From Sulfurimonas sp. (GTDB lineage: Bacteria > Campylobacterota > Campylobacteria > Campylobacterales > Sulfurimonadaceae), in assembly GCF_028713515.1 (NCBI RefSeq), contig NZ_JAQTOD010000004.1, forward strand, positions 1 through 64,000: 64,000 bases of DNA, read 5' to 3'. Both the position numbers and the translations under genes were made by a program. The notes under the pieces were generated by a model. It worked only from the letters and a program-made list of their open reading frames with translations, had not been told where the DNA came from and did no database searches. Every line of letters begins with the position of its first letter. Within the stretch, counting starts at the first letter, position 1. Shown here piece after piece: positions 5,896 to 23,924 of the stretch.

Positions 5896-7876
5896 TTATA
5901 AAACCTCTTGTCCTCCATCTTCTATTACTAACTAAACTTTCAAAATCAGTATTATTATCAAGAGTCAAATGGTCAGCATGATCAGTAACTATAACTTGAA
6001 GTTCAATACCTGTTTCTTCAAATGTTGTTTTGCAAAAAGAAACTAATTGATTAAATAAATTAGTAACAGCTCTTAAATCTTCATCTTTTGTCCCTGTTCC
6101 TTTTTTTGCTTCAATATCATCAATATTGAATTCTATATTCTCATCTTTTATAGAAGTTGGGAAATAAACTTGGCTTGGTTGATCTAGAAATAAAATAGCT
6201 GGAATTAAAGATTTATCGCCTAAAGAACAAAAGAATTTATGTAAAGCCAAAAATAAAGTCACATGACTATATAACCAATTCGCACCACTTCCCATAGAAC
6301 GAAGATAAATTTTTTCTCCACTTTCTCTTTCATGCCATAAATCAAAACTTTCTAATGAAAATTTCAAATTAATAGGTTTGTATGTTTCTTCAAAATCAAA
6401 TTTTTCACCAATTTTTTTCATTTCAGTATTGATATACTTTTCTGCATTTAATAATTTTTTAGTAACAGCAAATTTCTCTTTTAAATCTTTTTGATAGTCT
6501 TGTATTTTTTTCTTTGAAATATTAATTTGTTCTTCAAGACTGGAACTATCTCTACCTACCAAATTTTCAAGTAGATTTTCAATTTTAAGCTTAACTTTTA
6601 AGCCTTGTTCTTCTAAACTTTTATTTCTTTCTAATCCACTTGTAATGTCTTCTAATTTATTAATTTTTTGATAAATACTTCTAATTTCATTATCTAAGCT
6701 ACTAATTTGTTCTTCAATCTCTTTTTTATCACTTTCAAATGAATCAAGTAAATAATTAGATTTTGAAAGTTCACCATTAAGCCAATGAATAGCACTTTCT
6801 AAATGATTTGCTTGAATTAAAATTTTTTCATTATGTGTATGACAAAAAGGGCATTCTGATACTTTAACTTTTTCTTCACTTTCATTTGTCAAATTTTCTA
6901 CATCATGAAAATGTTTATTTGCGTACTCTATTGAAGATGAAATATCGTTAAGTTTATTTTGCAAAATCCTTTTTTTTGAATAAAGCTCATTTTTTTTATT
7001 TCTTAATACTTGTAAGTCTTTTAAACTTTGCTCAGATTCATAATTAGTCAAAATCTCTTTTTTTTCAAGTTTTTGTAAGGTATTTGCAGGATTTATGAGT
7101 ATTTGCATTATACTTTCATCTGTTAATTTATTACCAGTAATTGCATAATACTCATCCAATAAATCATTTAATTTATGAGTATTAAATTCATTTTGCTGAA
7201 TTAATGCTTTTTGTTGATTTTCTAAACTCTTAAAATTTCTTTGTTCATCCGCCAAACTTTGCTTAATAGTGTAGTATTCTTGTTTTACGAAACTAGCAAA
7301 AATTTTAAATTGGTCAATTGTTTGTTCTCTTTTTTCTTTTTCATCAAACCTATAAAATAAAGAGTGTTTATTAGCTACTAAATTTTGATGTTGTAACAAA
7401 AAAGGTATCATATTTCTAATTGATGGGCGACCTTTTTTAGCATTATTTTTTCTATAATTTCTATCTTCTAAATCTTCATCCGTATCCGTTATATCTAACC
7501 CTAAGTAATGACCTAAATCCACATTAAAATCTTGTGTAAAATAGCTTTCTTCAAAATATTCTTTTTTTAGATTTTCAATATTTGGCGATTCAGATTCAAA
7601 TTTTAAGAATTTTTTTGATAAATTTGGACTTCTACCAATAGTTATAAAAGAGTCTTTAATAGCTAAAACCATAAAATATACATCTGCACTATCTGTAATA
7701 ATGCCTGATGGTATTGTAAACTCACTGCTACCAAAACAATAATCAAATAGTTCAATCATTGCACTTTTCCCAGTAGATGATTTACCTGTAATTACATTAA
7801 CGCCCGTGTTAAATTCAACATAATGTATTTTGTTTGATTTATCCACAACACCTAGATATTTTACATGACTTTTCAT
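5888..7876 (-). CDS. DUF3732 Rad50/SMC-like ATPase of an ABC-3C-type system
   Basis: This 662-residue protein has Walker A GKSSTGKSA near residue 32, long coiled coils (about 195-330 and 365-500) flanking a Rad50-type zinc hook CPFC near residue 343, an ABC signature-like SMGSGANWL (about 537), and the Walker B region PAILFLDQPSQVYFP (about 570) that is characteristic of DUF3732. Such ATPases are the motor of three-component ABC (ABC-3C) conflict systems, thought to sense DNA or invasion states and switch on a fused or partner effector. It overlaps the middle component by 4 bases (ATGA) and fic by 8. By eye this block is richer in A and T than hsdM or hsdR. Confidence 0.88.
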   Translation of the reverse strand: MKSHVKYLGVVDKSNKIHYVEFNTGVNVITGKSSTGKSAMIELFDYCFGSSEFTIPSGIITDSADVYFMVLAIKDSFITIGRSPNLSKKFLKFESESPNIENLKKEYFEESYFTQDFNVDLGHYLGLDITDTDEDLEDRNYRKNNAKKGRPSIRNMIPFLLQHQNLVANKHSLFYRFDEKEKREQTIDQFKIFASFVKQEYYTIKQSLADEQRNFKSLENQQKALIQQNEFNTHKLNDLLDEYYAITGNKLTDESIMQILINPANTLQKLEKKEILTNYESEQSLKDLQVLRNKKNELYSKKRILQNKLNDISSSIEYANKHFHDVENLTNESEEKVKVSECPFCHTHNEKILIQANHLESAIHWLNGELSKSNYLLDSFESDKKEIEEQISSLDNEIRSIYQKINKLEDITSGLERNKSLEEQGLKVKLKIENLLENLVGRDSSSLEEQINISKKKIQDYQKDLKEKFAVTKKLLNAEKYINTEMKKIGEKFDFEETYKPINLKFSLESFDLWHERESGEKIYLRSMGSGANWLYSHVTLFLALHKFFCSLGDKSLIPAILFLDQPSQVYFPTSIKDENIEFNIDDIEAKKGTGTKDEDLRAVTNLFNQLVSFCKTTFEETGIELQVIVTDHADHLTLDNNTDFESLVSNRRWRTRGFINE

Positions 7877-8349
7877 AGCTCTTTCACTCCTAATAATCTG
7901 TATATTGCAACAACATCCAAATCTCTGAAAATTTTATGTAAATTTGAAGAGGCTTTAAATGACTGATTCAAATTTTCCACCTTATTCTCCACTTTTTTTA
8001 AAAATTCAATCGATAAATCTTCATTAACTCTAATCCATTGATTGTCAATAGCATGTTGAATACATTGATTCGTTATCTCTTTATAATTTTTAATTCTATC
8101 TGGTAAACCAAAAACATTTTCTCTTTTTGATTTGTCCTTACTATCCATAAAAGTATGAATGTTACTTGTTGTTCTAACAGTTTGAAGTGTTTGTTTGCTT
8201 CGCTCATTTAATACTATAGGCAAAATAAGATAAGCTAATAAAATATTTTTTGGCTTTTCTCCAAGTTTTTCATAAAATGCCACAATTAATGGAGTAAAAA
8301 CAAAAGGATTATTATGTATTTTAGAAACATTATCAATAAATTTATTCAT
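7873..8349 (-). CDS. ABC-3C middle component-like protein
   Basis: A small, mostly helical protein of 158 residues between an effector-like gene and the DUF3732 ATPase. The opening (FIDNVSKIHNNPFVFTPLI) and its size and position match middle components (MC) of ABC three-component systems, believed to couple the ATPase to the effector. I choose the ATG at 8349 because AAAGG lies 9 bases before it; the TTG at 8358 and ATG at 8355 are too close to that site. It lies within the last codons of the upstream gene, so translation is probably coupled. No catalytic motif is visible. Confidence 0.75.
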   Translation of the reverse strand: MNKFIDNVSKIHNNPFVFTPLIVAFYEKLGEKPKNILLAYLILPIVLNERSKQTLQTVRTTSNIHTFMDSKDKSKRENVFGLPDRIKNYKEITNQCIQHAIDNQWIRVNEDLSIEFLKKVENKVENLNQSFKASSNLHKIFRDLDVVAIYRLLGVKEL

Positions 8350-9493
8350 CTTCATCAACCTTTAATTTCCAAGTGATTTTTCTTTCATTCTCACTGCTTT
8401 CATCATCTGCCATTTGATGTAAAAGACCATTTCTAAATCGTTTTGGAGTATCATTAAAATTTCTAAAATTTGGTGTATTCTCTCCCATTACACTGTTATA
8501 AAATATTTTTGAGTCTCTTGGAACTTTGGAATTTTCAGTACCTAGTGAAGCCATATTATATTTTGATTTGTAAGTATCATGTATCTCTTTTTCATAATTA
8601 TCGTAATATATAGTAGGTACCTCATACCTGCTCAATTCTTCAAAAATTGTTTTTCTAGTATAGATAAAATCTGAAATTGCATCACTTTTAACATCTTTAT
8701 AATTTATCTCATCAATTTTCTTTACAAAAGTGTATTCTGAATGTTGTTTTTCTTCATCTTCAGTTGCCATTACGCTTCGATATATTGCTGGAAAAATAAT
8801 AGTTTTTGAATTGAACTCTTCTAATAATGATGTTGTTCTTGCTTGAAAAGATTGATATGTAATTTTCCAATCTTGAGAGGTAATAGGTGGACTTATAATA
8901 TATCCCATTAGTGAATTAATATAATCAGTTTTTTTATCAGAAGGCACTCCATATGTTCTTGCTTGTATCAACCTTTTATAAAGTTCTTCATCATTTTCTT
9001 GTGAACTTGAAATTATAAACTTATTCAAAATCTCCAATAATTTTTCATTTCTTGAATTATCCAAAACTAATAGCAATAATTCTTCTGTTTCTTTTGCTTT
9101 TTTAGTTTGTTCTAAAAATAATGTGTTTATATCTTTTAAAATCGATAATTTTTCATTTTTATTCTTACTGTTCCATTCTTGAAAAGCTGTCATCTTACTC
9201 AAATCTTGAGTAGTTAAAAGTATCAAGTTTTTATATGTTAATATATTTGGATCATTGAGCCAATTTTTCAGTGTTTTCCAAATATTGTGATCTAAATTCG
9301 TTAAATCTTTTTCATAGTCTTTAACTTCGGTTTGACTACTTCCATTTTTATTCATTACTGTAACATCACCATATGTTTCAATATAAACACTTTCATTTTC
9401 AAGTAAGTCAAAACATTTTTCAAGTGCAATATAACATTGATAAAAAATAGGCTTAATTGTTTTTGTTGCATCGTGAATAAGTTTATCAGCCAT
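8342..9493 (-). CDS. ABC-3C effector/CTD component with nuclease-like N-terminus
   Basis: This is a 383-residue protein in the effector position of the ABC-3C module. Near the N-terminus, FYQCYIALEKCFDLL is followed by VYIETYGDVTV and SSQTEVKDY (about residues 38-60): an E..D...E-x-K pattern like that of DUF4297/PD-(D/E)xK-type DNases often carried by such components. The rest is helical and probably serves as the C-terminal domain that meets the MC and ATPase. No membrane segments are seen. Nuclease activity is inferred from the short motif only; a homologue search would be needed to name the CTD class. Confidence 0.6.
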   Translation of the reverse strand: MADKLIHDATKTIKPIFYQCYIALEKCFDLLENESVYIETYGDVTVMNKNGSSQTEVKDYEKDLTNLDHNIWKTLKNWLNDPNILTYKNLILLTTQDLSKMTAFQEWNSKNKNEKLSILKDINTLFLEQTKKAKETEELLLLVLDNSRNEKLLEILNKFIISSSQENDEELYKRLIQARTYGVPSDKKTDYINSLMGYIISPPITSQDWKITYQSFQARTTSLLEEFNSKTIIFPAIYRSVMATEDEEKQHSEYTFVKKIDEINYKDVKSDAISDFIYTRKTIFEELSRYEVPTIYYDNYEKEIHDTYKSKYNMASLGTENSKVPRDSKIFYNSVMGENTPNFRNFNDTPKRFRNGLLHQMADDESSENERKITWKLKVDEDE

Positions 9494-9565: not shown

Positions 9566-10612
9566 CTATTCAATAGTTTTAGCAAAAAAAACTCTATCAA
9601 TACCATAAAAATCCAATAGAACAGCAATAAAACTCTTTACTTCTGTTGTTGAATAAGTGTGTAATTTGAAAATTCTATTCGCACTCAATAGCTCAAACTC
9701 CAAAGAGGAAGCAAAAATACTTTTTAACACCTTATTATCCGAAAAATATTCAGCTAAAATATCAGTTGGCATATTTTCAAACTGTTTTGAAATATTATAT
9801 CTAGCTTGATTTGCTATGCTCTGTCCATTGTCAGCATATTGTTCAACGAAAGACAAAGACATATCAATAATTCTTTTAATTTCCTTTTCACCCTTATTTC
9901 CATATCTAAATCCATTTTTAAAGGCATTTTTTCTAGCATCTGCATCTTCTAAAAAAGCTAAATCTCTTTGAATATAATCAAGATTAATAGCAATATAAGA
10001 ACATAGTAAATAAAAAATTCTAAGAGAAATTTCTTTTTGTGATGGTTTTGTAAATATCTGTTCAACAAAAAATTTAGTAATATTGAGTAATTTATTCATA
10101 TTATCAAAATTTAATCCAAGTGCCAAGAGTGATTTTGCTTCTAAAAACTTATTTTTCCAATCACCATCCAACTTGCTTAAAGAATAAGAATCAATCATTG
10201 AGATTATTTCTTCATCTGTCAATCTTGCTTCTAAGTATTGTTCATAATTCTTAATTTTATTCAAGAAATTTCCATCTAAAACAAAAACATTTAAATCTTT
10301 TCCAAAATCTTTCACATCAGGTCTTTTATCTGTTGTAGCAATTAAAGCATTAGTGGCTTTTATTGCAGTTTGTAAACCTTTTACCCAAAATATTCTCTCA
10401 ATAGCTTGGGGTGTTTTTTTATTTTTGATATCAACTATAGAAATTTCTCTAGATACAGAAGATGTACGATTATAAAGCCATAAGTCAATATCAGTTATTG
10501 CAAAACCTCTATAATTAAATGGTATTCCTCGTGCTACATAGTAGCCATTTTTCAAGAAATATATTCTCAATATCTCTTCTGTTTTAAAACCTTTGTTTAT
10601 TGCTGTAGCCAT
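9566..10612 (-). CDS. PD-(D/E)xK nuclease-like protein of a two-gene cassette
   Basis: This 348-residue protein starts with KGFKTEEILRIYFLKNGYYVARGIPF, then ITDIDLWLY (about 38-46) and ISIVDIKNKKTPQAIERIFWVKGLQ (about 57-81). This order, a helix with Glu, then D-x-D, then (D/E)-x-K, resembles restriction endonuclease-like nucleases that act on DNA. The remaining 230 residues are helical without recognisable motifs. A strong site (GGGAGGA) precedes the ATG, which follows the upstream stop by 2 bases, so the two genes are probably made as a pair. I cannot assign it to a named defence system. Confidence 0.6.
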   Translation of the reverse strand: MATAINKGFKTEEILRIYFLKNGYYVARGIPFNYRGFAITDIDLWLYNRTSSVSREISIVDIKNKKTPQAIERIFWVKGLQTAIKATNALIATTDKRPDVKDFGKDLNVFVLDGNFLNKIKNYEQYLEARLTDEEIISMIDSYSLSKLDGDWKNKFLEAKSLLALGLNFDNMNKLLNITKFFVEQIFTKPSQKEISLRIFYLLCSYIAINLDYIQRDLAFLEDADARKNAFKNGFRYGNKGEKEIKRIIDMSLSFVEQYADNGQSIANQARYNISKQFENMPTDILAEYFSDNKVLKSIFASSLEFELLSANRIFKLHTYSTTEVKSFIAVLLDFYGIDRVFFAKTIE

Positions 10613-10614
10613 AA

Positions 10615-11895
10615 TTAAAATCCTCCCGTTCTTAATGCCATAATCATATTGTTAGTATCTTTTGCAGTTCTATCCACTTGTTTTTTTCTGATATTCACTC
10701 GATTTACTTCTGGTCCTTTATATTTGTTGATTGTTGCACTTGGCAAAGATGTTAATGATTGCTCACTTATATTTCCTTGTTTTATTGCCTGTAAGGCAAG
10801 TTCTCCAACATCTTTTTTAAGCAACTTCATCATCCAACCACTTCTCTTATTGCCTTGCCAACTTGTTTTAGAGCCATGTTTAATCTCAACAACATGTTTT
10901 AATTCTAAAACCTTATAATCTTGCCCTATCGCATCAACTGGTCCTACTTCCTCACCTCTAATTAGTGCTTTTAGTAGTTTTTCTATCATAGTGATATTTC
11001 CTCTGCTAGAACCACTTTTTGTCATACCATAAGTTAATGAACTGACAAAAGCTTTGGCTAAATCAAATGCATCATCAACATTAGATGAACTATATTTAGA
11101 AAAAGACGATGGTTTAGTTAAAAATCCAACTTCTCCTTTTTCGTTACTTACAACATTAATATCAAACATACCTATTGCACTAAGTTTAGAATATAATTGT
11201 TCACCTAATATTTTGATTGCCTGATTTGATTCAATGCAAGCCTTTTCATCCAATAATTTATTAAATTGTATAAGCTTTGTTTGTTCATCTTGAGTAAGTG
11301 AAGCTAGAACTTGCTGTATTTTTTTTGTATTTTCTCTTTTAAAAAGATTACCATTGAAATACAAAGTATTTTGATCATCTATATTTTCTACATCTACTAG
11401 CCCAATTTGTTCTATATTTTGCTGAAATGAACTTAGTGATGTAGCATCAATTTTATATTGGTCAGATATTTCTGCCAAAATATCTTCTCGCCTATAAGGT
11501 GTCTCTGATATCTTTTCCGAAAGTATAATCGAAGCAAATTCTGTTTTATCAGGTTCTTGACTTTGAAATATTTTGCTAGTATGTTCAAGTGTAGTGGAAG
11601 TTGTAAGACCCAATATTGCTATACCTGACTGTCCAATATCTATTAATTCATTTGCTTTTAAAATATCTAGCAAAGCTTTTTGTTCTAATTTAGATATATT
11701 AGCTTCTTTTGCCAATGCATCAATTTTGGTTTGATTTAAAGTAAATTCCTCTGAAGTACTTAATGCAGAAAGTAAAATACCAGCTTTACCAGCCGTTTTT
11801 ATATTATCAAAAGCTGTCGTATTGACTGTTTGTAATTTATTTGCATGATGAATCAACCATGCTCCCTGCGTTTTTAAATCAATGCTATCTATCAT
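10615..11895 (-). CDS. Unknown 426-residue protein with winged-helix-like repeats
   Basis: I do not recognise this family. Residues about 40-110 (TLNQTKIDALAKEANISKLEQKALLDILKANELIDI) read like a winged helix, and a second similar helical unit is at about 125-180. The C-terminal third holds VLELKHVVEIKHGSKTSWQGNKRSG, a basic and mixed strand-helix part that could bind nucleic acid. There is no ATPase, nuclease, signal or membrane motif. It starts at 11895 with AAAGGA just upstream, right after the hsdS remnant, and precedes the nuclease-like gene by 2 bases. A DNA-sensing or regulatory partner of that nuclease is a reasonable guess, not shown. Confidence 0.55.
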   Translation of the reverse strand: MIDSIDLKTQGAWLIHHANKLQTVNTTAFDNIKTAGKAGILLSALSTSEEFTLNQTKIDALAKEANISKLEQKALLDILKANELIDIGQSGIAILGLTTSTTLEHTSKIFQSQEPDKTEFASIILSEKISETPYRREDILAEISDQYKIDATSLSSFQQNIEQIGLVDVENIDDQNTLYFNGNLFKRENTKKIQQVLASLTQDEQTKLIQFNKLLDEKACIESNQAIKILGEQLYSKLSAIGMFDINVVSNEKGEVGFLTKPSSFSKYSSSNVDDAFDLAKAFVSSLTYGMTKSGSSRGNITMIEKLLKALIRGEEVGPVDAIGQDYKVLELKHVVEIKHGSKTSWQGNKRSGWMMKLLKKDVGELALQAIKQGNISEQSLTSLPSATINKYKGPEVNRVNIRKKQVDRTAKDTNNMIMALRTGGF

Positions 11896-12000: not shown

Positions 12001-13233
12001 TTACCCCTCAATAGTTGCCATTTTTGAAAGTAAAATTTCTTTTAACTTAAATAGCTTTTTATTCATTGATTCAGTTACCCAAATATACTGACTACATTGA
12101 CTAATAAGTAAATAAAATTTGTCAATTATTATTCTATTAGGATGTGAAAATTTTATTTGTTCAAATTCTGTTTTATTTATCATTAACATTGTCGACGAAC
12201 CAATTGCAATATTCCTAAGATTTTCATAACTATTTAATAAAGTATAATACAAGTATTCGACCATTTTATTTTCATTTAGAATAATTGAATTTATCTGCTG
12301 ATTAGTTATACATTGAGTCTTGTTTATGACCACTTTTCCCATATCTGAACCTATACAAGTAACTAATAAAGAATCTTCTTTTAAAACCTTATTCTTTAAT
12401 TTTTTTGCACCTTTATTAGATAAGCTTCTTATTGATTCTGTAACAAATTTTCCGTAATTTTTATAATCAGTAGGTGTAATAAAAGGCATATATATACCAA
12501 AATCTTCTGGATAGTCGCTTGATGGTGTTTTTCCTGTAATCACATTACCAATTTCTGAAATTTTAGAAGCTTTCCACCCTTTAGGTATCTCCATATCCAA
12601 CTCTTCACAATAAACCATCTCACCACTATTTGATTTATATGGCTTACCATTTTCATCAGGAAACTCAAAATCCACAAACCACTCTTTATAGATACCTTGA
12701 GCGGTGTCTTCTAGCTTGTGATTTAGTTGTTCATTTAGTTTGATTCTATCTGTGATGGTGTGGTACTCTTTGACTATCTCTCTTTGTTTCTCGATTGATG
12801 GAACTGGAAGTTCTAAATCACAAAAATCTTCCCAGTTAAAGCCACCTCTCACGCTGCTATCAGTTGTAAACCAAGCATTTCTATCAAACTCACTTCTTCT
12901 ACACCACATCATCAGATATTCTGGCAATAATTCATTAGTGTCTACTATTTCAAAAACGACATAAGCAGGAGATACAATAACACTATCTTCGTGTGCAAGC
13001 ATACTGATTGGAAGAATTTCATCTCTTCCAACGTGCATTGGATTATAAGCGAATTGATTCTTTTCAACAATTTTATATACTGATAAGTCTGTGCCAGTGA
13101 CATTTGCGACTGATGGCATAAATTCTTTAGTTATATTTATACCTCGAAGATGTTCAACTGTTCGACTGTTAGAATTGTTTTTATTTTTGGCTTGTTGAAC
13201 AAACTTACCAATCTTTTTATAGTTTGATCTCAT
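12001..13233 (-). CDS. hsdS: Type I restriction-modification specificity subunit (HsdS)
   Basis: The 410-residue protein sets the DNA target of the complex. It has two target recognition domains: an N-terminal one ending in the conserved block WEDFCDLELPVPSIEKQREIVKEYH (about 126-150), followed by a spacer helix (KLNEQLNHKLEDTAQGIYKEWFVDFEF), then a second beginning IPKGWKASKISEIGNVITGKTPS and a closing helix ending KLKEILLSKMATIEG. The two TRDs recognise the halves of a split site that cannot be predicted here. The start overlaps the hsdM end by 17 bases. The piece of another hsdS tail directly downstream points to past allele exchange. Confidence 0.95.
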   Translation of the reverse strand: MRSNYKKIGKFVQQAKNKNNSNSRTVEHLRGINITKEFMPSVANVTGTDLSVYKIVEKNQFAYNPMHVGRDEILPISMLAHEDSVIVSPAYVVFEIVDTNELLPEYLMMWCRRSEFDRNAWFTTDSSVRGGFNWEDFCDLELPVPSIEKQREIVKEYHTITDRIKLNEQLNHKLEDTAQGIYKEWFVDFEFPDENGKPYKSNSGEMVYCEELDMEIPKGWKASKISEIGNVITGKTPSSDYPEDFGIYMPFITPTDYKNYGKFVTESIRSLSNKGAKKLKNKVLKEDSLLVTCIGSDMGKVVINKTQCITNQQINSIILNENKMVEYLYYTLLNSYENLRNIAIGSSTMLMINKTEFEQIKFSHPNRIIIDKFYLLISQCSQYIWVTESMNKKLFKLKEILLSKMATIEG

Positions 13234-14776
13234 AGCCCAACTCTTTAAAAACTGTTAATAGCTCATGCTTTGATCGTTCTTCCTCTTTTAGAAGCTCTGT
13301 AAATTCACCTTGAAGTGTTGTCATCTTTGTATCGAAATCTATATTTTCATCTTTGTTTACAAACTTGATGTATTTACTAGGAACGAGGGAATAGTCTTTT
13401 GCTCTCACTTCGTCTATCGTGGCACTTTTACAGTATTCTGCTATATCTTTATAAGCCTCTTTATCGCTTTGCCAAGTATGATAAGTTGATGATACTTCAT
13501 CTAACGTTTCATCGTCAAACTGCACAAATTTTTTCTCAAATGGCACCCCTTTTTTTCTTAAATCCATAAAGAGTATTTCTCCGGTTCTATCTCTATGGGT
13601 TTTTGTTCGGTCATTTTGTTCAAAAGTTCTGAGCTTCTTATTGGCATTGAGTATCCAAAGTGTTACACTGATGTCTGTGGTATAAAACATCTTCATTGGC
13701 AATACAAGTATAGCTTCCACTAAATCATTTTCTATTAGTTTTGCTCTAATTTTATACTCTTCACCGCCACCACTGAGTGATCCGTTTGCCAAGATGAATC
13801 CTGCTACTCCATTTTGAGAGAGTTTTGATACCATATTTAGTATCCAACCGTAGTTAGCGTTTGATGTAGGCGGTACATCGTATCCTGCCCATCTCGCATC
13901 ATCTAGCAGTTCATTTACACCTCTCCAGTCCTTTTGATTAAAAGGAGGATTTGCCATAATAAAGTCGGCTTTTAAATCTTTGTGTTGGTCTTTTGCAAAT
14001 GTATCGGCAGGTACATCTCCAAGATTTGCGGAAATTCCTCTAATGGCTAGGTTCATTTTGGCGAGTTTATATGTAGTCGCCGTGTATTCTTGACCATAGA
14101 CTGAGATATCTTTTTTGTTTCCGTTGTGAGCATCTATGAACTTGACAGACTGAACAAACATACCACCACTACCACAAGCAGGATCGTAAATTTTGCCTTT
14201 ATAAGGCTCTATCATGGTTGCTATCAGATTGACGATTGATTTTGGAGTGTAGAACTCACCTTTTCCTTTTCCCTCTGCAATAGCAAAATTACTCAAAAAG
14301 TATTCATACACACGACCGACGATATCGTGCCCTTTGTCTTCTATGGTGTTGATGTTGTTGATAGTATCTATAAGAGAAGAGAGCTTGCTTGCATCAAGCC
14401 CTAGTCTTGAGAAGTAGTTATCGGGCAAAGCCCCTTTGAGAGAAGGATTGTTTTTTTCAATCGTTGCTAAAGCTGTATCTATTTTGAGAGCTATATCATC
14501 TTGTTTTGCTTGCTGCTTGATATACGACCATCTTGATTCTTCTGGAAGATAAAATACATTTTCCATAGTATAAAACTCTACCATATCGATAAATGCTTCT
14601 TTTCCCTCTGATAGTAGCTTTTCTCTGCGCTCTTCAAATGTATCACTGACAAACTTTAAAAATATTAGACCTAAAACAATATGTTTATATTCACTAGATT
14701 CAACAGAGCCTCTTAGTTTATTTGCACTATCCCAAAGAGTTTCTTCCATAGATTTTTGATTTTTTTCTTTTGCCAT
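13217..14776 (-). CDS. hsdM: Type I restriction-modification methyltransferase (HsdM)
   Basis: This 519-residue N6-adenine methyltransferase is the first gene of the operon. It contains the N-terminal HsdM helical domain (ETLWDSANKLRGSVESSEYKHIVLGLIFLKFVSD), the AdoMet motif DPACGSGGMF (about 199-208), and the catalytic motif NPPF (about 279-282). With HsdS it methylates and recognises the target, and with HsdR it restricts. Gene order M-S-...-R is usual, but six other complete genes (and an hsdS stump) sit between S and R. The start at 14776 (MAKEKNQKS) follows a weak AAGG site. Confidence 0.97.
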   Translation of the reverse strand: MAKEKNQKSMEETLWDSANKLRGSVESSEYKHIVLGLIFLKFVSDTFEERREKLLSEGKEAFIDMVEFYTMENVFYLPEESRWSYIKQQAKQDDIALKIDTALATIEKNNPSLKGALPDNYFSRLGLDASKLSSLIDTINNINTIEDKGHDIVGRVYEYFLSNFAIAEGKGKGEFYTPKSIVNLIATMIEPYKGKIYDPACGSGGMFVQSVKFIDAHNGNKKDISVYGQEYTATTYKLAKMNLAIRGISANLGDVPADTFAKDQHKDLKADFIMANPPFNQKDWRGVNELLDDARWAGYDVPPTSNANYGWILNMVSKLSQNGVAGFILANGSLSGGGEEYKIRAKLIENDLVEAILVLPMKMFYTTDISVTLWILNANKKLRTFEQNDRTKTHRDRTGEILFMDLRKKGVPFEKKFVQFDDETLDEVSSTYHTWQSDKEAYKDIAEYCKSATIDEVRAKDYSLVPSKYIKFVNKDENIDFDTKMTTLQGEFTELLKEEERSKHELLTVFKELGYEIKL

Positions 14777-15229: not shown

Positions 15230-16156
15230 TTAGAAATCAAAATTTCCACAGCTATCATTAAGAACAAACTCTTCCTCTTTTTTCTTAACAACCATTTTAT
15301 AATTTTTTATACTATAGAGATTATAAATATATTCCATTATATATGAGAAATTTGGGTACAGTCTATATTTATTAACCTGAGACATGAGTTTATTGTATTC
15401 TCTTGCTTTATTCGCAATGTTACTACACTCTATGCATTTTTGTATATAAAGCACTTGGTTTTTAACTCGTATATCTTCAAAATAAAAAATTGCGTATCTC
15501 TCAAATATCCTGCTGATGGCTTCATTAAGAGTATCTAAGTTTTTGTTTTTAAAAAATTTAGATGGAAGTTTTAACTCAAATCTACTTATCTGCTCATGTA
15601 ACGACTCTTTAAACTGTTTGTCATAAAACAACGCTGATACTGATTTAGTTTTCTTTTGTAAATAATTAGTGGTAATATAAATTTGTTCGTTATGGTATCT
15701 GCCATTTGGCACTTTTTTAATCTGCATAGCATAAAAGTTGTCGTACGCACAATTTACATCAATATTACAATCTAACTCACTCAGTTTAAATGGCAACCTT
15801 TTACTATTTAGCCAACTAGCCATAGCAAATAAAAAGTTGCTTCTTAACTCATCATTATAATCATCATAACTCTTTAACCCTGCAAATACCATCTTTATGT
15901 AATATGTTGATTCTTTTCTGTCTTGACCATGAGCATAAACACCAGTGTTAATCGTTGCTATAGTTGTGTTGTTGCTATAAATAACATACTCTATTCGTAC
16001 ACCACCGTTACCAAATCTATGTTCTTTGGAATCTACAAAAAAAGTTTCAATACTCATAACTAAATTTATCATTTCGTTTAATCTCGCTCTTTGTAGCTCC
16101 GCACTATGAAACTCTACTCTTAATCCTATACTGTCTATTTGTGTCGTGTAATGCAT
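15230..16156 (-). CDS. Putative replication-initiator-like protein (unassigned)
   Basis: A 308-residue soluble protein. The opening TQIDSIGLRVEF and the central segment SVSALFYDKQFKESLHEQISRFELKL (about 172-197) resemble the gene II/X-type replication proteins of plasmids and filamentous phages, in which a strand-loop followed by an R-F-E-x-K/R-L strand is usual. I cannot see a clear HUH or catalytic Tyr pair, so the call is tentative. It stands alone, transcribed toward the defence operon promoter region. It might start replication of an excised island or be a relic of a plasmid. Confidence 0.35.
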   Translation of the reverse strand: MHYTTQIDSIGLRVEFHSAELQRARLNEMINLVMSIETFFVDSKEHRFGNGGVRIEYVIYSNNTTIATINTGVYAHGQDRKESTYYIKMVFAGLKSYDDYNDELRSNFLFAMASWLNSKRLPFKLSELDCNIDVNCAYDNFYAMQIKKVPNGRYHNEQIYITTNYLQKKTKSVSALFYDKQFKESLHEQISRFELKLPSKFFKNKNLDTLNEAISRIFERYAIFYFEDIRVKNQVLYIQKCIECSNIANKAREYNKLMSQVNKYRLYPNFSYIMEYIYNLYSIKNYKMVVKKKEEEFVLNDSCGNFDF

Positions 16157-16471: not shown

Positions 16472-16768
16472 CTACTGCTCTTTTTTTAACTGCGATAGTG
16501 GCTGTGGTTTAAACCCTAAATCCCTCTCAACACCTAGTCCAAGACTTCCTTTTGCCTCTTGTATCTCTGATAGCGAAAAATATCCTAGTTCGCTCCCAAA
16601 AGGCGATACCACATATCCAAAGCAAATATCTTTATCTATTGAAAGCTCTGTAATGTACCAAGTCCAGCCGTCTAAAAAGAGTTTTACATACGCTATAGGG
16701 TCTTGTTGCTCCTTTGTAGCGTAAAGAAGAGGGATTTTATCTTCTATCTCTTTTGATATTAGTTCCAT
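16472..16768 (-). CDS. DUF2958 domain protein
   Basis: This 98-residue protein fits DUF2958 over its whole length: KLFLDGWTWYITEL, then FGYVVSPFGSELGYFSLSEI, then LGLGVERDLGFKPQPLS. The family is widespread on plasmids and integrative elements; its biochemical role is not known to me. I set the start at 16768 (MELIS) because an AGGAGG stands 7 bases ahead of it; an in-frame ATG at 16786 sits before that site and is unlikely to be used. It is the fifth or sixth gene of the minus-strand recombination module. Confidence 0.8.
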   Translation of the reverse strand: MELISKEIEDKIPLLYATKEQQDPIAYVKLFLDGWTWYITELSIDKDICFGYVVSPFGSELGYFSLSEIQEAKGSLGLGVERDLGFKPQPLSQLKKEQ

Positions 16769-16782
16769 AAAATGACCTCCTT

Positions 16783-17001
16783 TCATAGTTCCAAATTTCG
16801 TATAAAATCACCGATGCACTCAATGGCATTTACATCTTTAAATGCAAATTCTCTCAAATAGGAGTGGCTTATTTTAAAGTTTTTAAATGCTTCTAAAATA
16901 TCCACTCCCTCTTGCGAACCAAGTATCTGCATATTGGTGATCTCTTTATTGCTGGGATCACACGTATAACCCTCCGTTGTAAAGAATAGAAAATTTCTCA
17001 T
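16783..17001 (-). CDS. Small unknown protein of the recombination module
   Basis: A 72-residue protein (MRNFLFFTTEGYTCDPSNK...) that I do not recognise. The start at 17001 sits at the stop of the Rad52-family gene (TGA at 17005-17003, then ATG), giving coupled translation; a longer frame from 17097 would run wholly inside that gene. The first residues are hydrophobic, but too short and without the pattern of a signal peptide. Small genes of this kind with an FTTEGxTxxP start often occur beside DUF2958 and DUF932 genes on mobile elements, which is an impression from memory. Confidence 0.6.
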   Translation of the reverse strand: MRNFLFFTTEGYTCDPSNKEITNMQILGSQEGVDILEAFKNFKISHSYLREFAFKDVNAIECIGDFIRNLEL

Positions 17002-17002
17002 C

Positions 17003-17677
17003 TCATGCCGCCTGTTGATCAAGCGGTTTATACCACTGCTTTCCGTTCCAGCGGAAACCGTATGCTTTGATACTATCTTTTTTAGCGTATATGTCATCGC
17101 CTATAACTATAAGAGAATTTCCCTGCTGTAATACGGAGAGCCCGAGATTGTATAGCGAGGTGTAATCTTGCGGAGAGCGGTCGTGTATCTTCTGCTGCGG
17201 TTGTTTTGATGGTAGTGAAGCTTGGGTGTTTTGCTGATGTGTTGTTGCTTGTCTGCCCTTGTCATATAGCGTATTTCCAAACTGTGCACCAAGTGTTCTA
17301 AAACATCTTTTTATACAATCAGTTACAGCTTCTTTAGCAGCATTTTCATATGCATCTGCCAATATTTTATTGATTCCAATACCAAATCCTATATCTTCAC
17401 GTTCTATTTGTTTGGTGTGTTGTAGATCATATACAGTGACCTTTACTATCGCCTTGTAGCAGATCACGATGTTCTGATTTTGATTAGTCTCTTGAGAGAC
17501 TTGTTCCAATTGGGATATGGTGTAGCTCCAATTGCCGTAGCCAAATATCCTGTTTGCTGTATCGATAATATCGAATCCTTCCAAATAAGAAAGTTCGATA
17601 TTGCCTTTGGTTCGTGTTTTGATACGGTTTGAATCTGGCTCGTAAGAAAGTACCTGTAACTGTTTTTCGTTAAACAT
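17003..17677 (-). CDS. Rad52/Rad22-family single-strand annealing protein
   Basis: The first 145 residues match the Rad52/22 annealing domain: SYLEGFDIIDTANRIFGYGNWSYTI, a strand pair ending in VTVYDL, then the conserved IGFGIG...LADAYENAAKEAVTDCIKRCFRTLG (about 100-133). Such proteins anneal complementary single strands and help recombination of phages and plasmids. The rest is a Gln-rich linker and a short C-terminal block (YAKKDSIKAYGFRWNGKQWYKP) probably used in DNA binding. A consensus AAGGAGG precedes the start at 17677. It is followed at once by the 72-residue gene. Confidence 0.85.
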   Translation of the reverse strand: MFNEKQLQVLSYEPDSNRIKTRTKGNIELSYLEGFDIIDTANRIFGYGNWSYTISQLEQVSQETNQNQNIVICYKAIVKVTVYDLQHTKQIEREDIGFGIGINKILADAYENAAKEAVTDCIKRCFRTLGAQFGNTLYDKGRQATTHQQNTQASLPSKQPQQKIHDRSPQDYTSLYNLGLSVLQQGNSLIVIGDDIYAKKDSIKAYGFRWNGKQWYKPLDQQAA

Positions 17678-17687: not shown

Positions 17688-18269
17688 TTATGCGGCTTGC
17701 TCTGCCAGACTCAATAGTTCGGCAGCTTGATTGTTTGTATGCATGCGTCTTGTATTGACCTTTATGCGGGCAGGCACTTCTTCTGCAACGACTCCGACCT
17801 CTATGTATTTATCTATCTCGTTCATACCCTCAAGAGTCAGCATCGCGTTTTTTACAGCATCTTCATCCACTATTACTGTGTAGTATCCAAGATCAATAAG
17901 TGCCTGAGCATCTAATATCTTGAAAGTCTCTTTGGATTTTATAGCTGATGGTGTGATCGTAATAGATGATATTGCCGTGCCGTCCAAACGTTCTATGCCG
18001 TATTCTGCTATAACGGATGCGATTGCTTGAAGAGAAAGTTCTTTTGCATTCACAAGTCTCTTTTTAAGAGCGGTGAGCTCTTTGATGTCTTCTGAGAGGT
18101 AGTCGATTTTGTTTTGAAGTTCTTGGATGCTTAGACCCAGATAATCAGCCTTGGCGTAATAAGGTTTGTCTGATTCTAAAACTTGTCGTACATAGTTTTT
18201 AAACCATTCTTCTTTGCCTTCTTTGAGATTTTCAATTTCTGTTTGAAGACGGTAGTTTGTTGTTTTCAT
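17688..18269 (-). CDS. Siphovirus Gp157-like protein
   Basis: This 193-residue protein has an N-terminal coiled coil (ELQNKIDYLSEDIKELTALKKRL, about 49-71) and then the small beta-rich end seen in Gp157-type phage proteins (SSITITPSAIKSKETFKI ... EVPARIKVNTRRM). Gp157 genes lie next to single-strand annealing proteins in phage recombination modules, as here. Its molecular function is unsettled. Clear AAGGAG at the start; 10 bases separate it from both the DUF932 gene and the Rad52-family gene, so all are in one operon. Confidence 0.65.
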   Translation of the reverse strand: MKTTNYRLQTEIENLKEGKEEWFKNYVRQVLESDKPYYAKADYLGLSIQELQNKIDYLSEDIKELTALKKRLVNAKELSLQAIASVIAEYGIERLDGTAISSITITPSAIKSKETFKILDAQALIDLGYYTVIVDEDAVKNAMLTLEGMNEIDKYIEVGVVAEEVPARIKVNTRRMHTNNQAAELLSLAEQAA

Positions 18270-18279: not shown

Positions 18280-19098
18280 TTATGCTGCCATCTGATATGA
18301 CGGCTCTTTTAGATTGGCGATCATTCGCGCCGTTTCATAAAGTTCTTTGTTTAGCTTGAGATTTGCATCGATCTGTGTGATAGGTTTGGAAGTAAAGTTT
18401 CTTCCCGTATAACGGTTGTGACCTCTTACTCCACCTTTAATCATCGCCTCTTGTATGCGATTGAATACAATCCATAAAGAGGAATCTTTATCTTCCTCTC
18501 TGTGTACATGTAAGAACTCCTGCGGATCAACGGCATGTGTCTCCTTGTCAAAGCGGATATCTACCGCAGCATTGGCTAAAGAGTACTGCTCTATAGGTGA
18601 GAGATGAATTGTTTTAAATTTCTCTATCTCTTTTTGTATATGTGGCATATAAGAAACAACTTCTTCAATAGCACTCTTTACTTTTTCAAGGTTGAATCCA
18701 GAGTGGATGATAGAGTGGTGTGAGAATGTTTGTGAGGGCACTACAAGCATGTTTGAACAAACAATGCGAAAATAGGCGAGATCGACGATAAATGAAGATG
18801 TACGGTTGTGTGAGTTTGTGAGAACGATATCTGCGTACTCTTCGTTTGCGTCCGGTCTTAACAGATTGTCGATACTTCGAAACTGGATAATGTGTTTTTG
18901 GTAACCTTGATTGTCGCTGTTACGTACTTTGCTTTCACTTGCCATAATAGGGTAGTATCCGGCATCTCTAAATGTATCCAACACGGAATATGTCGGTACA
19001 AAAGCATATCTCTCAGAGACGCCATCAATAGGAGTCTCTGAAAAGATTGAAGGTGCAGCAGCTCTTAGCTGCTCATTGGTTAACGGTATGTTTGACAT
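18280..19098 (-). CDS. DUF932 family protein
   Basis: The 272-residue protein follows DUF932: ERYAFVPTYSVLDTFRDAGYYPI, then YQKHIIQFRSID, then IVLTNSHNRTSSFIVDLAYFRIVCSNMLVV and a C-terminal GGVRGHNRYTGRNFTSKPITQIDANLKLNKELYE. DUF932 proteins are common on plasmids and phages, near recombination genes; their function is not defined. The start at 19098 lies 3 bases beyond the stop of the preceding microprotein gene. Confidence 0.85.
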   Translation of the reverse strand: MSNIPLTNEQLRAAAPSIFSETPIDGVSERYAFVPTYSVLDTFRDAGYYPIMASESKVRNSDNQGYQKHIIQFRSIDNLLRPDANEEYADIVLTNSHNRTSSFIVDLAYFRIVCSNMLVVPSQTFSHHSIIHSGFNLEKVKSAIEEVVSYMPHIQKEIEKFKTIHLSPIEQYSLANAAVDIRFDKETHAVDPQEFLHVHREEDKDSSLWIVFNRIQEAMIKGGVRGHNRYTGRNFTSKPITQIDANLKLNKELYETARMIANLKEPSYQMAA

Positions 19099-19388: not shown

Positions 19389-19607
19389 ATGGAGAAAAGT
19401 ACTACAAATTTCAGAGAGTTATTGCCGCGACAGGTATTATTTAATTTAAAGGATGTTCAACAACTTGGTATATTAAAAATAGATATGGCAAAAAAATTGA
19501 TTTATAAAGGTGAATTAGAGGTAGTTAAAATAGGTAATAAGTTACATTTGAGTTATTCTGAATTATTAAGATATCTGGAGAAAAATACAATTCCTACAAT
19601 AAATTAA
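19389..19607 (+). CDS. AlpA/excisionase-like small DNA-binding protein
   Basis: A 72-residue protein with LFNLKDVQQLGILKIDMAKKLIYKGELEVVKIGNKLHLSYSELLRYLEK, the MerR-like winged helix pattern of excisionase/AlpA proteins (helix LKDVQQL, wing KIGNKLH). These bend DNA at attachment sites or switch integrase expression. It is divergent from the DUF932 operon across about 155 bases and is followed by a terminator. It is the only intact candidate regulator seen in the island, so it might control both directions. Confidence 0.6.
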   Translation: MEKSTTNFRELLPRQVLFNLKDVQQLGILKIDMAKKLIYKGELEVVKIGNKLHLSYSELLRYLEKNTIPTIN

Positions 19608-19688
19608 AATCTCACACATGGCTTGCGGAGGTCTGTAATAGCGGCACCTTGCTGTACAGGAAATTAAAATCTCACACATGGCTTGCGG
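19601..19688 (+). repeat. Pair of exact 28-bp direct repeats, 60-base period
   Basis: AAATTAAAATCTCACACATG + GCTTGCGG occurs at 19601-19628 and again at 19661-19688, with a unique 32-base spacer (rich in GC relative to its surroundings). The first copy covers the stop codon of the AlpA-like gene; the second forms the left arm of a hairpin. It looks like a short tandem duplication of the gene end, or a slipped terminator copy. Confidence 0.85.
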
Positions 19689-19716
19689 CTATGTGTGAGA
19701 TTAATATCTTTTTTTT
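19668..19716 (+). terminator. Rho-independent terminator after the AlpA-like gene
   Basis: AATCTCACACAT (19668-19679) pairs exactly with ATGTGTGAGATT (19691-19702) across an 11-base loop, and a T-run follows (19709-19716). It would stop transcription of the AlpA-like gene and may also face the remnant reading the other way. Confidence 0.7.
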
Positions 19717-19913
19717 AATTTTTCAATTTTTTCTGTTGGCAAGCCTGTAACTTTAGCTAATGTTTGATTATCTAGCTTTTTAATTCTTAAAGCTAAAAGT
19801 TTTTTTGCTATTTCTTCTCTAATTCTCATCTCCGATTGACAAATACCTACTATTTCTCTATCTTTCAAAAAATAAATAATGATATTAAGATACTCTAATA
19901 TTACATTTACATC
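19701..19913 (-). pseudogene. C-terminal remnant of an Rpn-family nuclease (transposase_31 type)
   Basis: The minus-strand frame ending at 19701 reads IAKKLLALRIKKLDNQTLAKVTGLPTEKIEKLKKRY with a strand-like EYLNIIIYFLKDRE upstream. This is the usual end of PD-(D/E)xK family transposase/Rpn (recombination-promoting nuclease) proteins, in which an AK-x2-L helix is followed by a short HTH (IAKxTGLSxEEIxxL). The nuclease domain is absent and the frame closes upstream (stop before 19913). A 42-residue product could start at 19829 but is more likely decay. Confidence 0.5.
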
Positions 19914-20499: not shown

Positions 20500-22041
20500 T
20501 TATAGAAAAATATGAAAATATTTTTTTCCTGCAGAGAGCGATTTGGCATTTTCAACTTTAAAAAAATCATTATCAATTTTTCTCAACATATTCATAAAAG
20601 TTCTAGATGACTCAATAACACTATCTGGATTAAGTATTTTGAAGTAATTTAGAAGGTTTGCTTGCTTTATTAATTTTTTTTCGAAATCTTGTTCTAGTTC
20701 TGCATATAGTTTATTATTTTTCAATTGAATTTGTTTAAAGTACTCTTTGTCAATATTTTTAACTGCATTAATAAATATCTTTAACTTGTCATCCAAAGAA
20801 ACTGTCATCATATTACGATTATCATTTTCGAATGGAGTTTGATTATTAAGAGTACTTGAATAAAATCTTAATACTTTAACAAAGTTTTCTAGGTCTTTTT
20901 TTATATTATTCTCTAAATCTATCTTTGTTATTTTGGTTTTATCTTGTCTATTGCACCATACAGGAATATACATTTGGTCAAGTTTTGTGGCTATATGAAA
21001 AACAGTATAGTTTTCATCGTTCTCAAGATACAGTAATTCAGGCTCTTCTATAGTGATTAATGTTTGAGCATATTTTTGTTGACTTGAAAGTAGGCTCTGC
21101 AAATATTGCTTAGTTACTTTATTTTCAATAGCTGATTTTGATATATTATTTAAATTATAAAATAGCTTCTCTTTTACGATATTAAGTACATTGTTAGATG
21201 TTAATATTTTATCAGTTATTTCGAGGCAATTTTCTTCACCAAAAAGAGGAACAATAATATTATGAAACAATATTTCTAGCCCTGAATCCTTACTGCCATA
21301 TAACACTAAAGTAGTATTTGATTTATTTTCAAGATTCTTAAAAAAGGAGGCTATCCAATTTAAAATATAGCTGAATTTATTATAACTATATCCAGACAGA
21401 TGATATAAATATTGTAGTATTATAGATTTTTGAGGTTCATTTTGTTGAAAATCTATTGCTGTGCGTATGTACTCTTCTTCAGTTTTTTCAGGCTCCCATG
21501 ATTCAGTTCGCGTGGTCTCTGGTACTTGTGTTGACATTGTTAGGTAATGCGATGGCTTAAAGGTGTTGCGATAATATAGCCCATCTTTTTTATTTATATA
21601 AAATTCGTAATTTTCGTGAGGATTGTATTCTTCAGACTCTGCAAGCAAGAGTTGACTTACAGAGATAACCAAATTATTATTTTTGTGGAGTTCCTCTCGT
21701 TCATCGGCTAGTATTTGTTTTTTTGTAATTTTTTGTGTAAGAGTAAAATTACAGTTTAAGAAATTACTAAAAAGAATATTTATTTTAGGTAAAGTTGCAG
21801 TATGAACTTTTCCTTTTGGAGAAAACCTATAGCATATATCACCGTTGGATGTAAGCCAAAGAGCACCTCCACGTAAATTTATAATGTTAATCTCATTTGA
21901 TATGGCTAAATAAAAAGCTTCACCATAAATTTCTTTAACCCAGTTATTCTGAACATAAAGTTTATTGTTATTGAGTTTATTGTCATAAGTAAAACTAGAA
22001 TATACATCTTTTACATTAACTCTATTAAACCATAATGCCAT
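20500..22041 (-). CDS. D5/SF3 helicase-like protein with degenerate Walker A
   Basis: The 513-residue protein resembles the primase/helicase (DUF5906, SF3) replication proteins of phages and satellites: a helical stretch SIILQYLYHLSGYSYNKFSYILNWIASFFKN, then TTLVLYGSKDSGLEILFHNIIVPLFGEENC (about 244-273), then NLNNISKS and QTLITIEEPELLYLENDENYTVFHI. In the family the loop should be GxxGxGKN/S; here it is GSKDSGLE (249-256), with no lysine or serine/threonine, so ATP binding is doubtful. The N-terminal half has no obvious primase active site. It may be a relic of an island replication protein or a structural/inhibitory version. Confidence 0.55.
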   Translation of the reverse strand: MALWFNRVNVKDVYSSFTYDNKLNNNKLYVQNNWVKEIYGEAFYLAISNEINIINLRGGALWLTSNGDICYRFSPKGKVHTATLPKINILFSNFLNCNFTLTQKITKKQILADEREELHKNNNLVISVSQLLLAESEEYNPHENYEFYINKKDGLYYRNTFKPSHYLTMSTQVPETTRTESWEPEKTEEEYIRTAIDFQQNEPQKSIILQYLYHLSGYSYNKFSYILNWIASFFKNLENKSNTTLVLYGSKDSGLEILFHNIIVPLFGEENCLEITDKILTSNNVLNIVKEKLFYNLNNISKSAIENKVTKQYLQSLLSSQQKYAQTLITIEEPELLYLENDENYTVFHIATKLDQMYIPVWCNRQDKTKITKIDLENNIKKDLENFVKVLRFYSSTLNNQTPFENDNRNMMTVSLDDKLKIFINAVKNIDKEYFKQIQLKNNKLYAELEQDFEKKLIKQANLLNYFKILNPDSVIESSRTFMNMLRKIDNDFFKVENAKSLSAGKKYFHIFL

Positions 22042-22161: not shown

Positions 22162-23364
22162 TCATAATTTTTTGACAGCACTCATAATATAATCAAGATG
22201 ATTGCTATACCAGTCCATCATCTCGGTACGTTCTTTTAAATACAAAGCTCTGTTATAGGCTTGAGAGACTTTTGAGCCTACCGTATGGGCAAGTTGTGTT
22301 TCGATTACATCATGAGTGTATCTACCGTGTTCATGAGCGATAGTAGAAAATATACCTCGAAATGAGTGAGCCACTATCTCATCTTTTGTGTAACCGATTC
22401 TTCTTAAAGCAGCAACCATAGCCGCATCCGAAAGAGGTGTGTTTTGACCTCTTGGTGATGGAAATAAGAACTTACTACCAGTGCTATTCTCTTTAGCTTC
22501 TTTGATAATTTCAATAGACTGTTTGCTCATGGGTACAATTAGCTCTTTATTTGTTTTCATCTTTGCAGCAGGGATAATCCACTGTTTGGCTTTTAAATTG
22601 ATTTCATCCCATTCTGCATAGCGCATATTGATGGGTCTTACAAATGTATGGGCTATGAGTTTCAGAGCTAATTTTGTACTAATATGACCTGGATATTGCT
22701 CTATCAAGTTCAGTAATATACCTAACTCCTTATCACCTGTAATAATAGGGTAGTTATTTGTTTTGGATGAACCAACAACGTCTTTCAGCGATACGGATTT
22801 ACAAGGATTTAGTTCTACTTCATCAGGGTAGTTAGCAATTGCGACATCATAAACTCTTGAGATGCTGCTAAAAGTCTTTTTTGCTGACTCTTTCGCACCT
22901 CTGTTGGACATATTGTTTAAAATTCTGATGATATCTTTAGGTTTTATATCATTTATTAGCATATCACCGATCTCAGGATAAACATCTTTCTTCCAGCCTT
23001 TGAGACTTCTTACTAAATGAGTTTCGCTTACGTTATTGGCAACTTTATCCATGTAGTATTCCGACCACTCTTTAAATGTTTTAGCGGAAACTTCAGTTTG
23101 AATAGTTTCTTCAACTACAATAAATGGATCTATCCCGTCTGCAATAGCTGTTCTGGCAGCATCTCGTTTTTCTCTTGCTCTTGCTAATGATACGTCTGGA
23201 TAAACTCCAAAGCTTTTACGCATAGGCTTATTGTTAAAGCGGTAACGGAATCTCCACCTTTTAGATCCTTGTGGAGTAATTTCCAAACTAAGTCCTGCAC
23301 CATCATTAACTGTGTACAACTTGTCTTTTGGTTTTAAAGTTTTAACTTGCGTAGCTGTTAGCAT
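22162..23364 (-). CDS. Tyrosine recombinase/integrase of the island
   Basis: The 400-residue protein has the DUF4102 arm-binding N-terminus typical of P4-type integrases (PKDKLYTVNDGAGLSLEITPQGSKRWRFRYRF), a core-binding domain, and a catalytic domain with the first Arg in FVRPINMRYAEW (about 228), the HxxR box HSFRGIFSTIAHE (about 339-351), the next His in LAHTVGSKVSQAY, and the nucleophile Tyr in the same segment (AYNRALY). All key residues appear to be present. It ends the island and lies 184 bases from ssrA, the likely target. It would catalyse integration and excision. Confidence 0.93.
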   Translation of the reverse strand: MLTATQVKTLKPKDKLYTVNDGAGLSLEITPQGSKRWRFRYRFNNKPMRKSFGVYPDVSLARAREKRDAARTAIADGIDPFIVVEETIQTEVSAKTFKEWSEYYMDKVANNVSETHLVRSLKGWKKDVYPEIGDMLINDIKPKDIIRILNNMSNRGAKESAKKTFSSISRVYDVAIANYPDEVELNPCKSVSLKDVVGSSKTNNYPIITGDKELGILLNLIEQYPGHISTKLALKLIAHTFVRPINMRYAEWDEINLKAKQWIIPAAKMKTNKELIVPMSKQSIEIIKEAKENSTGSKFLFPSPRGQNTPLSDAAMVAALRRIGYTKDEIVAHSFRGIFSTIAHEHGRYTHDVIETQLAHTVGSKVSQAYNRALYLKERTEMMDWYSNHLDYIMSAVKKL

Positions 23365-23548: not shown

Positions 23549-23580
23549 TGGTGGAGCTGTGGAGAATCGAACTCCAGTCC
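23549..23580 (-). other. Presumed att site in the 3' end of ssrA
   Basis: The T-arm and acceptor end of tmRNA are the border between core sequence and the island with its integrase 184 bases away. P4-type integrases often use tRNA or tmRNA ends and restore the gene. The island-distal copy is not in the window, so the core cannot be defined here. Confidence 0.5.
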
Positions 23581-23924
23581 GAAACCACGCTACTCCTAAT
23601 GTCTACATGTTTAGAAAAATTGTTTGAATTTAATCTTGCTTCACACAACTTGCAAAGTTACGCAAGACGATCCTTTGGGATTCATTTTATGCACAAGGCA
23701 GACATAAAATATATCTACATAAGGGTTATACTTCGAGCCCTATCTATCTAGCGTCAATAGGTGAAGCAGCCCGCCTCTTACGAGGGGATAAAACTTAAGC
23801 TACTGCTAAAGCTGGGCGATAATTTGTATTGTTTGCGTTTAAGCAATTTGAGCCGCGTAACGGAAGTGCTCAGTCCGACATGCAATTAAAAGCTACTTGA
23901 TCCCGTCGAAACCAGGTCAGCCCC
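23549..23924 (-). ncRNA. ssrA: tmRNA (ssrA), with tag peptide ANNTNYRPALAVA
   Basis: The RNA starts GGGGCTGACCTGGTTTCGAC at 23924 and ends with a tRNA-like T-arm, TTCGATT and GCTCC-A-CCA at 23549. The tag frame (GCA at 23836 to TAA at 23795) encodes 13 residues, ending LAVA instead of the usual LAA-type end; Campylobacterota tags also vary here. It rescues ribosomes stalled on broken mRNAs and marks the product for proteolysis. A TATAAT lies 10 bases upstream (23939-23934). The 3' half is the presumed integration target of the neighbouring island, which begins right after the CCA. Confidence 0.97.

Follow-up and report, generated by a model that had tools for sequence, protein, structure and literature searches.

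A conserved family of SF3 helicase-like proteins with lost catalytic residues in integrating elements of Campylobacterales

Integrating elements of Campylobacterales carry a conserved family of dead SF3 proteins, for which our study identified 28 loci in 24 genomes. One of them, the query, is encoded in the 64,000-nucleotide stretch of Sulfurimonas sp. DNA that we analysed as a whole and that is referred to here as the window. As judged from its homologues and its predicted structure, the query is a putative pseudohelicase: an SF3 protein of the D5/NrS-1 type that has lost the catalytic and DNA-pulling parts and has retained the fold and the C-terminal winged helix. The role that we consider slightly more probable than all others together is that of a non-catalytic DNA-binding scaffold in the element's own replication and recombination module, which would be powered by another motor.

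Lost catalytic parts and retained fold of the query

The query protein (P0001, 513 aa), assigned by its frame, alignment and tree position, is encoded at 20500-22041 of the window on the minus strand, and all coordinates within it given below are on that strand. Its frame starts with ATG and is open for 513 codons, a length expected with a probability of about 5e-21 in random sequence of the same composition. A previous reading made from the sequence alone had noticed the long frame and the motif GSKDSGLE in the place of the Walker A loop, and our alignment confirms both: the motif (residues 249-256, 21274-21297) stands at the position of the SF3/D5 GxxGxGK(S/T), with L for the lysine and D for the earlier glycine, the glycine before the lysine position being retained (G254). 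The lysine column holds K in all 19 intact SF3 relatives of the alignment. The Walker B glutamate, also invariant in the 19, is replaced by N299 within the former Walker B strand KLFYNLNNI (residues 292-300, 21142-21168), and the equally invariant sensor asparagine is E332. The two arginine-finger columns, which are R in 17 and 19 of the 19 intact relatives, hold E343 and N344, so that D342 E343 N344 (21010-21018) occupies the place of DRR. Finally, the stretch from Walker B to the sensor, which includes the DNA-binding hairpin, comprises 23 residues in the query versus 31-38 in the intact rows (37-38 in 18 of the 19). Comparison with NrS-1 and the length of this stretch place the deletion of the pre-sensor hairpin at residues 319-325 (21067-21087). 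In many dead rows other than the query the stretch is of near normal length.

The consequences of such losses can be read from NrS-1 polymerase, in which K453A abolishes the dCTPase activity and K453A, K525A (in the KN hairpin), R555A and R556A all lack unwinding (PMC7102993). The equivalents of K453, R555 and R556 are absent from the query, and its hairpin region is shortened. Because these catalytic residues and the hairpin are lost, the query lacks the parts needed for burning nucleotides and for gripping single-stranded DNA inside the channel.

No family in Pfam, NCBIfam or PADLOC matches the query protein, and its sole clear family match is phrog_4762, of unknown function (residues 189-377, E 2.8e-7). 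The sequence-only reading had proposed an alignment to the DUF5906/D5 proteins, a group of SF3 helicases of phages and satellites; their profile (PF19263) gave no match up to E 10 to the query, in which all the catalytic residues are missing, whereas its sister and nearest dead relative, L064, passes the cut-off (28.4 vs 27.6 bits) and two intact relatives reach 51.7 and 57.6 bits. The kinship of the query to SF3 proteins is thus supported by its homologues and its predicted fold.

Three domains can be distinguished in the protein, the borders of the first two being set by hand: an N-terminal domain (residues 45-185, 21487-21909) common to the intact relatives and the NrS-1 C-terminal region, the dead SF3 AAA+ core (residues 186-404, 20830-21486) and the predicted winged-helix domain (residues 405-513, 20503-20829). 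The AlphaFold2 model of the query, built from 48 rows, has the SF3 AAA+ fold with a mean pLDDT of 76.7 and values mostly of 80-97 in the core; it is important to consider that 46 of these rows are viral homologues, almost all with an intact loop, and may pull the model toward their own fold. Among solved structures, the model matches the NrS-1 C-terminal region best (Z 23.1, 380 residues aligned, rmsd 8.1), followed by the SaPI5 primase-helicase (Z 15.9) and the poxvirus D5/E5 proteins (about 13); AAV Rep is matched as well. The NrS-1 helicase region (PDB 6k9c, 6k9e, 6lrb; PMC7102993) resembles the query in fold over residues 45-512 and in domain order, including the winged-helix tail, but it is an active (d)NTPase and helicase with a Walker A of GKQGTGKG, a KN hairpin and an RR finger; the query has none of these, nor the Prim/Pol domain. 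When the last 109 residues were folded alone, from five rows, they formed a winged helix with a pLDDT of 87.4, which aligns with NrS-1 604-718 at Z 9.1 and with the RFX DNA-binding domain at 5.9, other winged helices being weaker.

Census, phylogeny and selection of the dead family

Relatives of the query, among them homologues with a changed loop, whose search the sequence-only reading had suggested, were found in several scans: a protein search had matches in 7 of 99 related genomes, a ten-row profile in 17 of the 135 genomes of the genus and in 21 of the 397 of a phylum sample, and a second profile in 16 of the 104 genomes of the family of G398. The count of 28 dead loci includes the query and comprises the 21 dead rows of our tree, six more loci (L188, L190, L194, L198, L202 and L203) and a broken copy in G343; the members found in the scan of the family of G398 were left out of the tree. 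Four duplicates (L047, L048, L077 and L060) were dropped before counting, as were the short pieces L031b, L037, L039b, L044, L046, L072, L076/L078 and the second piece of L075, and L201 (G570), of which the C-terminal part alone is present, was excluded. The copies of G343, G529 and L075 (G474) lie in two frames.

The 40 aligned rows fall into two states. Considering five catalytic columns (Walker lysine, Walker B glutamate, sensor asparagine and the two arginine fingers), 19 rows retain four or five of them and 21 retain none or one, with no row between. Among the 21 dead rows, the Walker lysine survives in five, the glycine before it in five, the Walker B glutamate in one (L064) and the earlier Walker A glycine in none. 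Our searches of phages, plasmids and viral contigs found no dead copy, although the short-pattern viral scans can miss distant kin; one of these searches returned a canonical intact phage helicase, and 118 stretches with SF3 relatives were confirmed in viral contigs, where such relatives are common.

With the motif columns omitted, all 21 dead rows form one clade with a support of 100/99, which remains at 100/97 after the removal of 72 function-like columns. The flanking domains alone do not recover a single dead clade and imply five changes, none of them forced by a starred branch; the AU test on these domains does not reject a single clade (p 0.298). These comparisons of sequences favour one loss of catalysis, several losses being possible.

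Pairs of dead genes show purifying selection. In a first set of nine pairs, all of which are given here, the eight dead pairs, which are not all independent of each other, had dN/dS values of 0.21-0.32, versus 0.13 for the one intact pair. The dead pair L021/L190 gave 0.42, and L064/L188, both dead and both in the subclade of the query, gave 0.15 at a dS of about 1.5, near saturation. For the AAA+ part alone, six dead pairs gave 0.15-0.36; domain-wise values for the winged helix were set aside in L041/L042 (13 codons) and in L043/L032 (insert included). The closest relative of the query has at best 40% identity over the columns retained in the tree, and since it has no close relative, selection on its own branch is not directly measurable: its dN/dS of 0.46 against L064 and 0.28 against L188 come with a saturated dS. 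Its branch length is 0.80 versus 0.83 for its sister, and its differences from L064 by codon position (0.485, 0.339 and 0.588) are as would be expected of a protein under selection. A fold without catalytic residues in a gene under selection is what characterizes a pseudohelicase, and the query appears to show this combination, the selection being seen on its relatives rather than on the query branch alone. The sequence-only reading had described a kept but ATPase-dead replication protein, a description supported by homologues with a like loss, which form a single clade and show purifying selection in pairs; it had also named normal-loop homologues together with relaxed selection as the marks of simple decay. 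Such homologues do exist, and no sign of relaxed selection was seen.

The element of the query and the neighbourhoods of related genes

The query gene is part of an integrating element whose integrase adjoins the tmRNA gene (ssrA, 23549-23924, minus strand), the presumed integration site. Proceeding from there, the order is tyrosine integrase (22162-23364, minus; PF00589, PF13356), pseudo-SF3 gene, HTH_17/excisionase-like regulator (19389-19607, plus; PF12728 at E 5e-4 and 20.6 bits, below the cut-off of 27, and TIGR01764 at E 9e-4, also below its cut-off), DUF932 protein (18280-19098, minus; PF06067), Gp157-like protein (17688-18269, minus; PF05565 at E 1e-5 and 26 bits, slightly below the cut-off of 28.6), Rad52/22-family annealing protein (17003-17677, minus; PF04098, E 4e-28), DUF2958 protein (16472-16786, minus; PF11171) and a conserved 308-aa Rep-like protein (15230-16156, minus), which its place and a YxK...RxE pattern make a candidate replication initiator. 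An HUH identity of this last protein was discarded, as Pfam, PHROGs and the PDB sequences all gave no match to it; p197, the alternative Rep-like gene of related elements, is an HUH protein with an HxH motif that matches PF23343/PF11726. A second copy of the tmRNA end was not found in the window with exact seeds of 13-16 nt, and the query's own genome gave short weak matches only. Since the window starts where its contig starts, the element may extend on the left beyond the available sequence.

A terminator-like hairpin (19668-19702, plus strand) lies 60 nt beyond the stop of the HTH gene. It was considered as an origin and dropped, since it scores as a terminator; like hairpins occur within 185 nt of the stop in 10 of 11 HTH genes of related elements, and no more than 8 of 200 random windows attained their scores. 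The region 19595-19702 also contains a 34-nt direct repeat (94%); the core of this repeat occurs a third time in inverted orientation, forming a 15-bp hairpin just past the HTH gene.

Around the dead loci, Rad52 and DUF932 genes are present near 17 of the 20 whose neighbourhood is not interrupted by a contig end, the exceptions being G047, G549 and one locus of G537; a Rep-like gene, either p197 or one from the family of window 15230-16156, is near 15 of these 20 and absent near five. The other eight dead loci are outside this count, being truncated at contig ends (G100, four of G138, G557) or left out (the second locus of G537 and G529), and the neighbourhoods of L201, L202 and L203 are not in the counts. 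Rad52 and DUF932 were found in 8 of 21 intact regions, two of which (G100 and G121) are short contig ends, and four intact regions without this pair have a primase-like neighbour, p274 or p698 (G074, G209, G395 and G055). An intact relative is also present in 3 of the 24 genomes with a dead copy (G004, G055 and G100), and the identity to intact relatives is low (26-32%).

Intact SF3 genes are adjoined by a gene of the p311 family (281-353 aa) in seven elements (two in G004 and one each in G100, G469, G127, G519 and G520). The member that was tested has no match in Pfam, and no full p311 copy was found in any dead-only element examined. In the query's element, 19713-19844 (minus strand) matches the last approximately 44 columns of this partner family (E 3.3e-7), which is suggestive of a p311 remnant, the tail motif being short. 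An intact SF3 gene, a p311-family gene and a dead SF3 gene lie in a row in G004 (L013, 8581-13270) and G100 (L053, 9225-13607), with both SF3 genes under purifying selection.

Possible roles of the dead proteins

Special attention was given to dead relatives into which an ATPase has been built. Seven of them have a TrwB/HerA-type ATPase domain or its Walker A. In L032 (34-2901, minus strand) and L043 (1444-4263, plus strand), alignment and Pfam place about 450 residues of such domains (PF10412, PF01935) after the dead core and ahead of a tail alignable with the winged helix of the query; their Walker A sequences are classical (GQTGSGKS and GMTGSGKS), and the TrwB match of the fused domain has an E value of 2.4e-5. 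L040 (GKTGSGKS) ends within the ATPase domain and L075 (GLTRIGKS) matches PF01935; in L194, L198 and L202 the ATPase is known from the Walker A alone (GQSGSGKS, GQTRIGKS and GLTRIGKS). No classical Walker A occurs anywhere in 17 of the 21 dead tree rows. The ATPase domain belongs to the family of the TrwB/HerA-type hexameric ATPases (PDB 1gl6, 1e9r); it lies inside a dead SF3 protein in the fused relatives and is absent from the query. These fusions provide the best hint to function: the dead core and tail would seem to remain useful once a new motor is supplied, although in these proteins that motor may by now serve another purpose.

In the scaffold role that we favour, the winged helix would bind the origin or fork DNA of the element, and the dead SF3 protein, probably as a ring or oligomer, would maintain the site at which the Rep-like initiator and the Rad52 annealing set act. 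Another motor would carry out the unwinding or pumping: a host helicase for the query and, in some relatives, the TrwB/HerA-type ATPase of the same protein. The absence of Rad52 near three of the 20 dead loci, and of a Rep-like gene near five, speaks against this role. Of the three roles named in the sequence-only reading (structural part, decoy or phage-replication inhibitor), the structural part is the best fit, given the replication module, the retention of fold and winged helix and the relatives with an added ATPase domain. A wider version is tentative, and we hold it to be possible rather than probable: dead SF3 rings might form a general adaptor class of mobile elements in which site and ring geometry are retained and the motor is exchangeable. 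On this view the fused members would be two-ring machines that arose through motor replacement, with a live TrwB/HerA-type pump stacked on the dead SF3 ring and guided by the old winged helix.

It is unlikely that the protein acts as a decoy or poison subunit that enters the hexamers formed by active SF3 replicases of rival phages or elements, halting them and leading to exclusion. The retained ring-family fold, the 118 stretches of SF3 relatives in viral contigs and the dead and intact copies in a row in G004 and G100 would suit it, and trans-dominant Rep mutants of AAV are known. Nevertheless, a decoy needs an active SF3 partner, yet an intact relative is present in just 3 of the 24 genomes, although phage targets may be transient. 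In addition, the residues of the catalytic interface are gone and that face of the ring is unconserved, the identity to intact relatives is no higher than 26-32%, and the gene sits in the replication slot rather than among defence cargo, with no match to a PADLOC family; for these reasons a decoy or an inhibitor of phage replication, as formerly suggested, finds little support. A regulator, in which the winged helix would act on element DNA to control excision or gene expression and the remainder would be a passive dimerisation platform, is in our opinion distinctly unlikely: the tail and the position of the gene between the integrase and the HTH/excisionase gene are consistent with it, but the dead core is itself constrained (the AAA+ values of the six dead pairs) and a large ATPase, as added in some relatives, would be odd for a repressor.

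Quite improbable is a switch that binds a nucleotide or other small molecule without hydrolysis. The lysine and the preceding glycine each persist in five of the 21 dead rows, the latter also in the query (G254), but the query has lost both the lysine and the earlier glycine, and no dead row retains the second of these. We regard it as very improbable that this is simply a replication gene decaying within an element that is dying out: the p311-like neighbour reduced to a remnant and the two-frame copies of G343 and G529 speak for it, while the open frame of 513 codons, a loss common to several families, the dN/dS of 0.15-0.42 in dead pairs and a query branch no longer than that of its sister speak against it.

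Returning to the scaffold reading, PriA of Deinococcus radiodurans is a chromosomal fork-restart protein of another helicase family, SF2. This replication helicase is reported to have lost its Walker residues and ATPase activity and to have retained DNA binding (PMC4504706); it is, on that account, a direct precedent for an ATPase-less replication helicase that still binds DNA, the loss described here being in SF3 proteins of mobile elements. In the literature searched, pseudohelicases are known singly (PriA, Utp25). Our search, with most subscription papers outside its scope, revealed no earlier account of dead SF3 proteins as a family of mobile elements, nor of such proteins fused to a TrwB/HerA-type motor. 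Reports on PICI/PICMI satellites (PMC10803314, PMC10111431) describe a core of integrase, AlpA-like HTH_17 and DUF5906 replication gene. Relative to that description, the query's element is alike in its integrase (PF00589) and differs in that its replication gene is dead and without primase and that a Rad52/Gp157/DUF932 module is added; its HTH_17 match is below cut-off.

A clade of dead SF3 replication proteins, some of them with a different ATPase inserted, would offer natural material for studying which functions of a replicative ring go beyond ATP consumption and whether evolution can exchange one motor for another, and a dead replication gene in a selected family of elements makes the question of which motor replaces it directly testable. 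It is also a warning for annotation: such genes resemble helicases or primases in fold and cannot act as such.

The window contains further genes of interest. At the start of the contig, 91-942 (plus strand) has weak matches to viral SF1 helicases and the UvrD C-terminal domain and is probably a truncated gene, and a tRNA-Asp with anticodon atc predicted by ARAGORN at 930-1027 (minus) is probably false. Lamassu-type defence genes, assigned by PADLOC and Pfam, occupy 5888-9493 (minus): LmuA (8342-9493), LmuC (7873-8358, also ABC-3C MC3) and LmuB (5888-7876, DUF3732). Within the same defence cargo, two adjacent proteins of 348 and 426 aa (9566-11895, minus) have no Pfam or PADLOC match. Type I restriction-modification genes (1790-4948 and 12001-14776, minus) lie on both sides of the Lamassu genes and a Fic protein (4945-5895); the part at 13217-14776 is confirmed by PADLOC and the remainder was read from the sequence. 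Several related elements have a similar gene on the same side.
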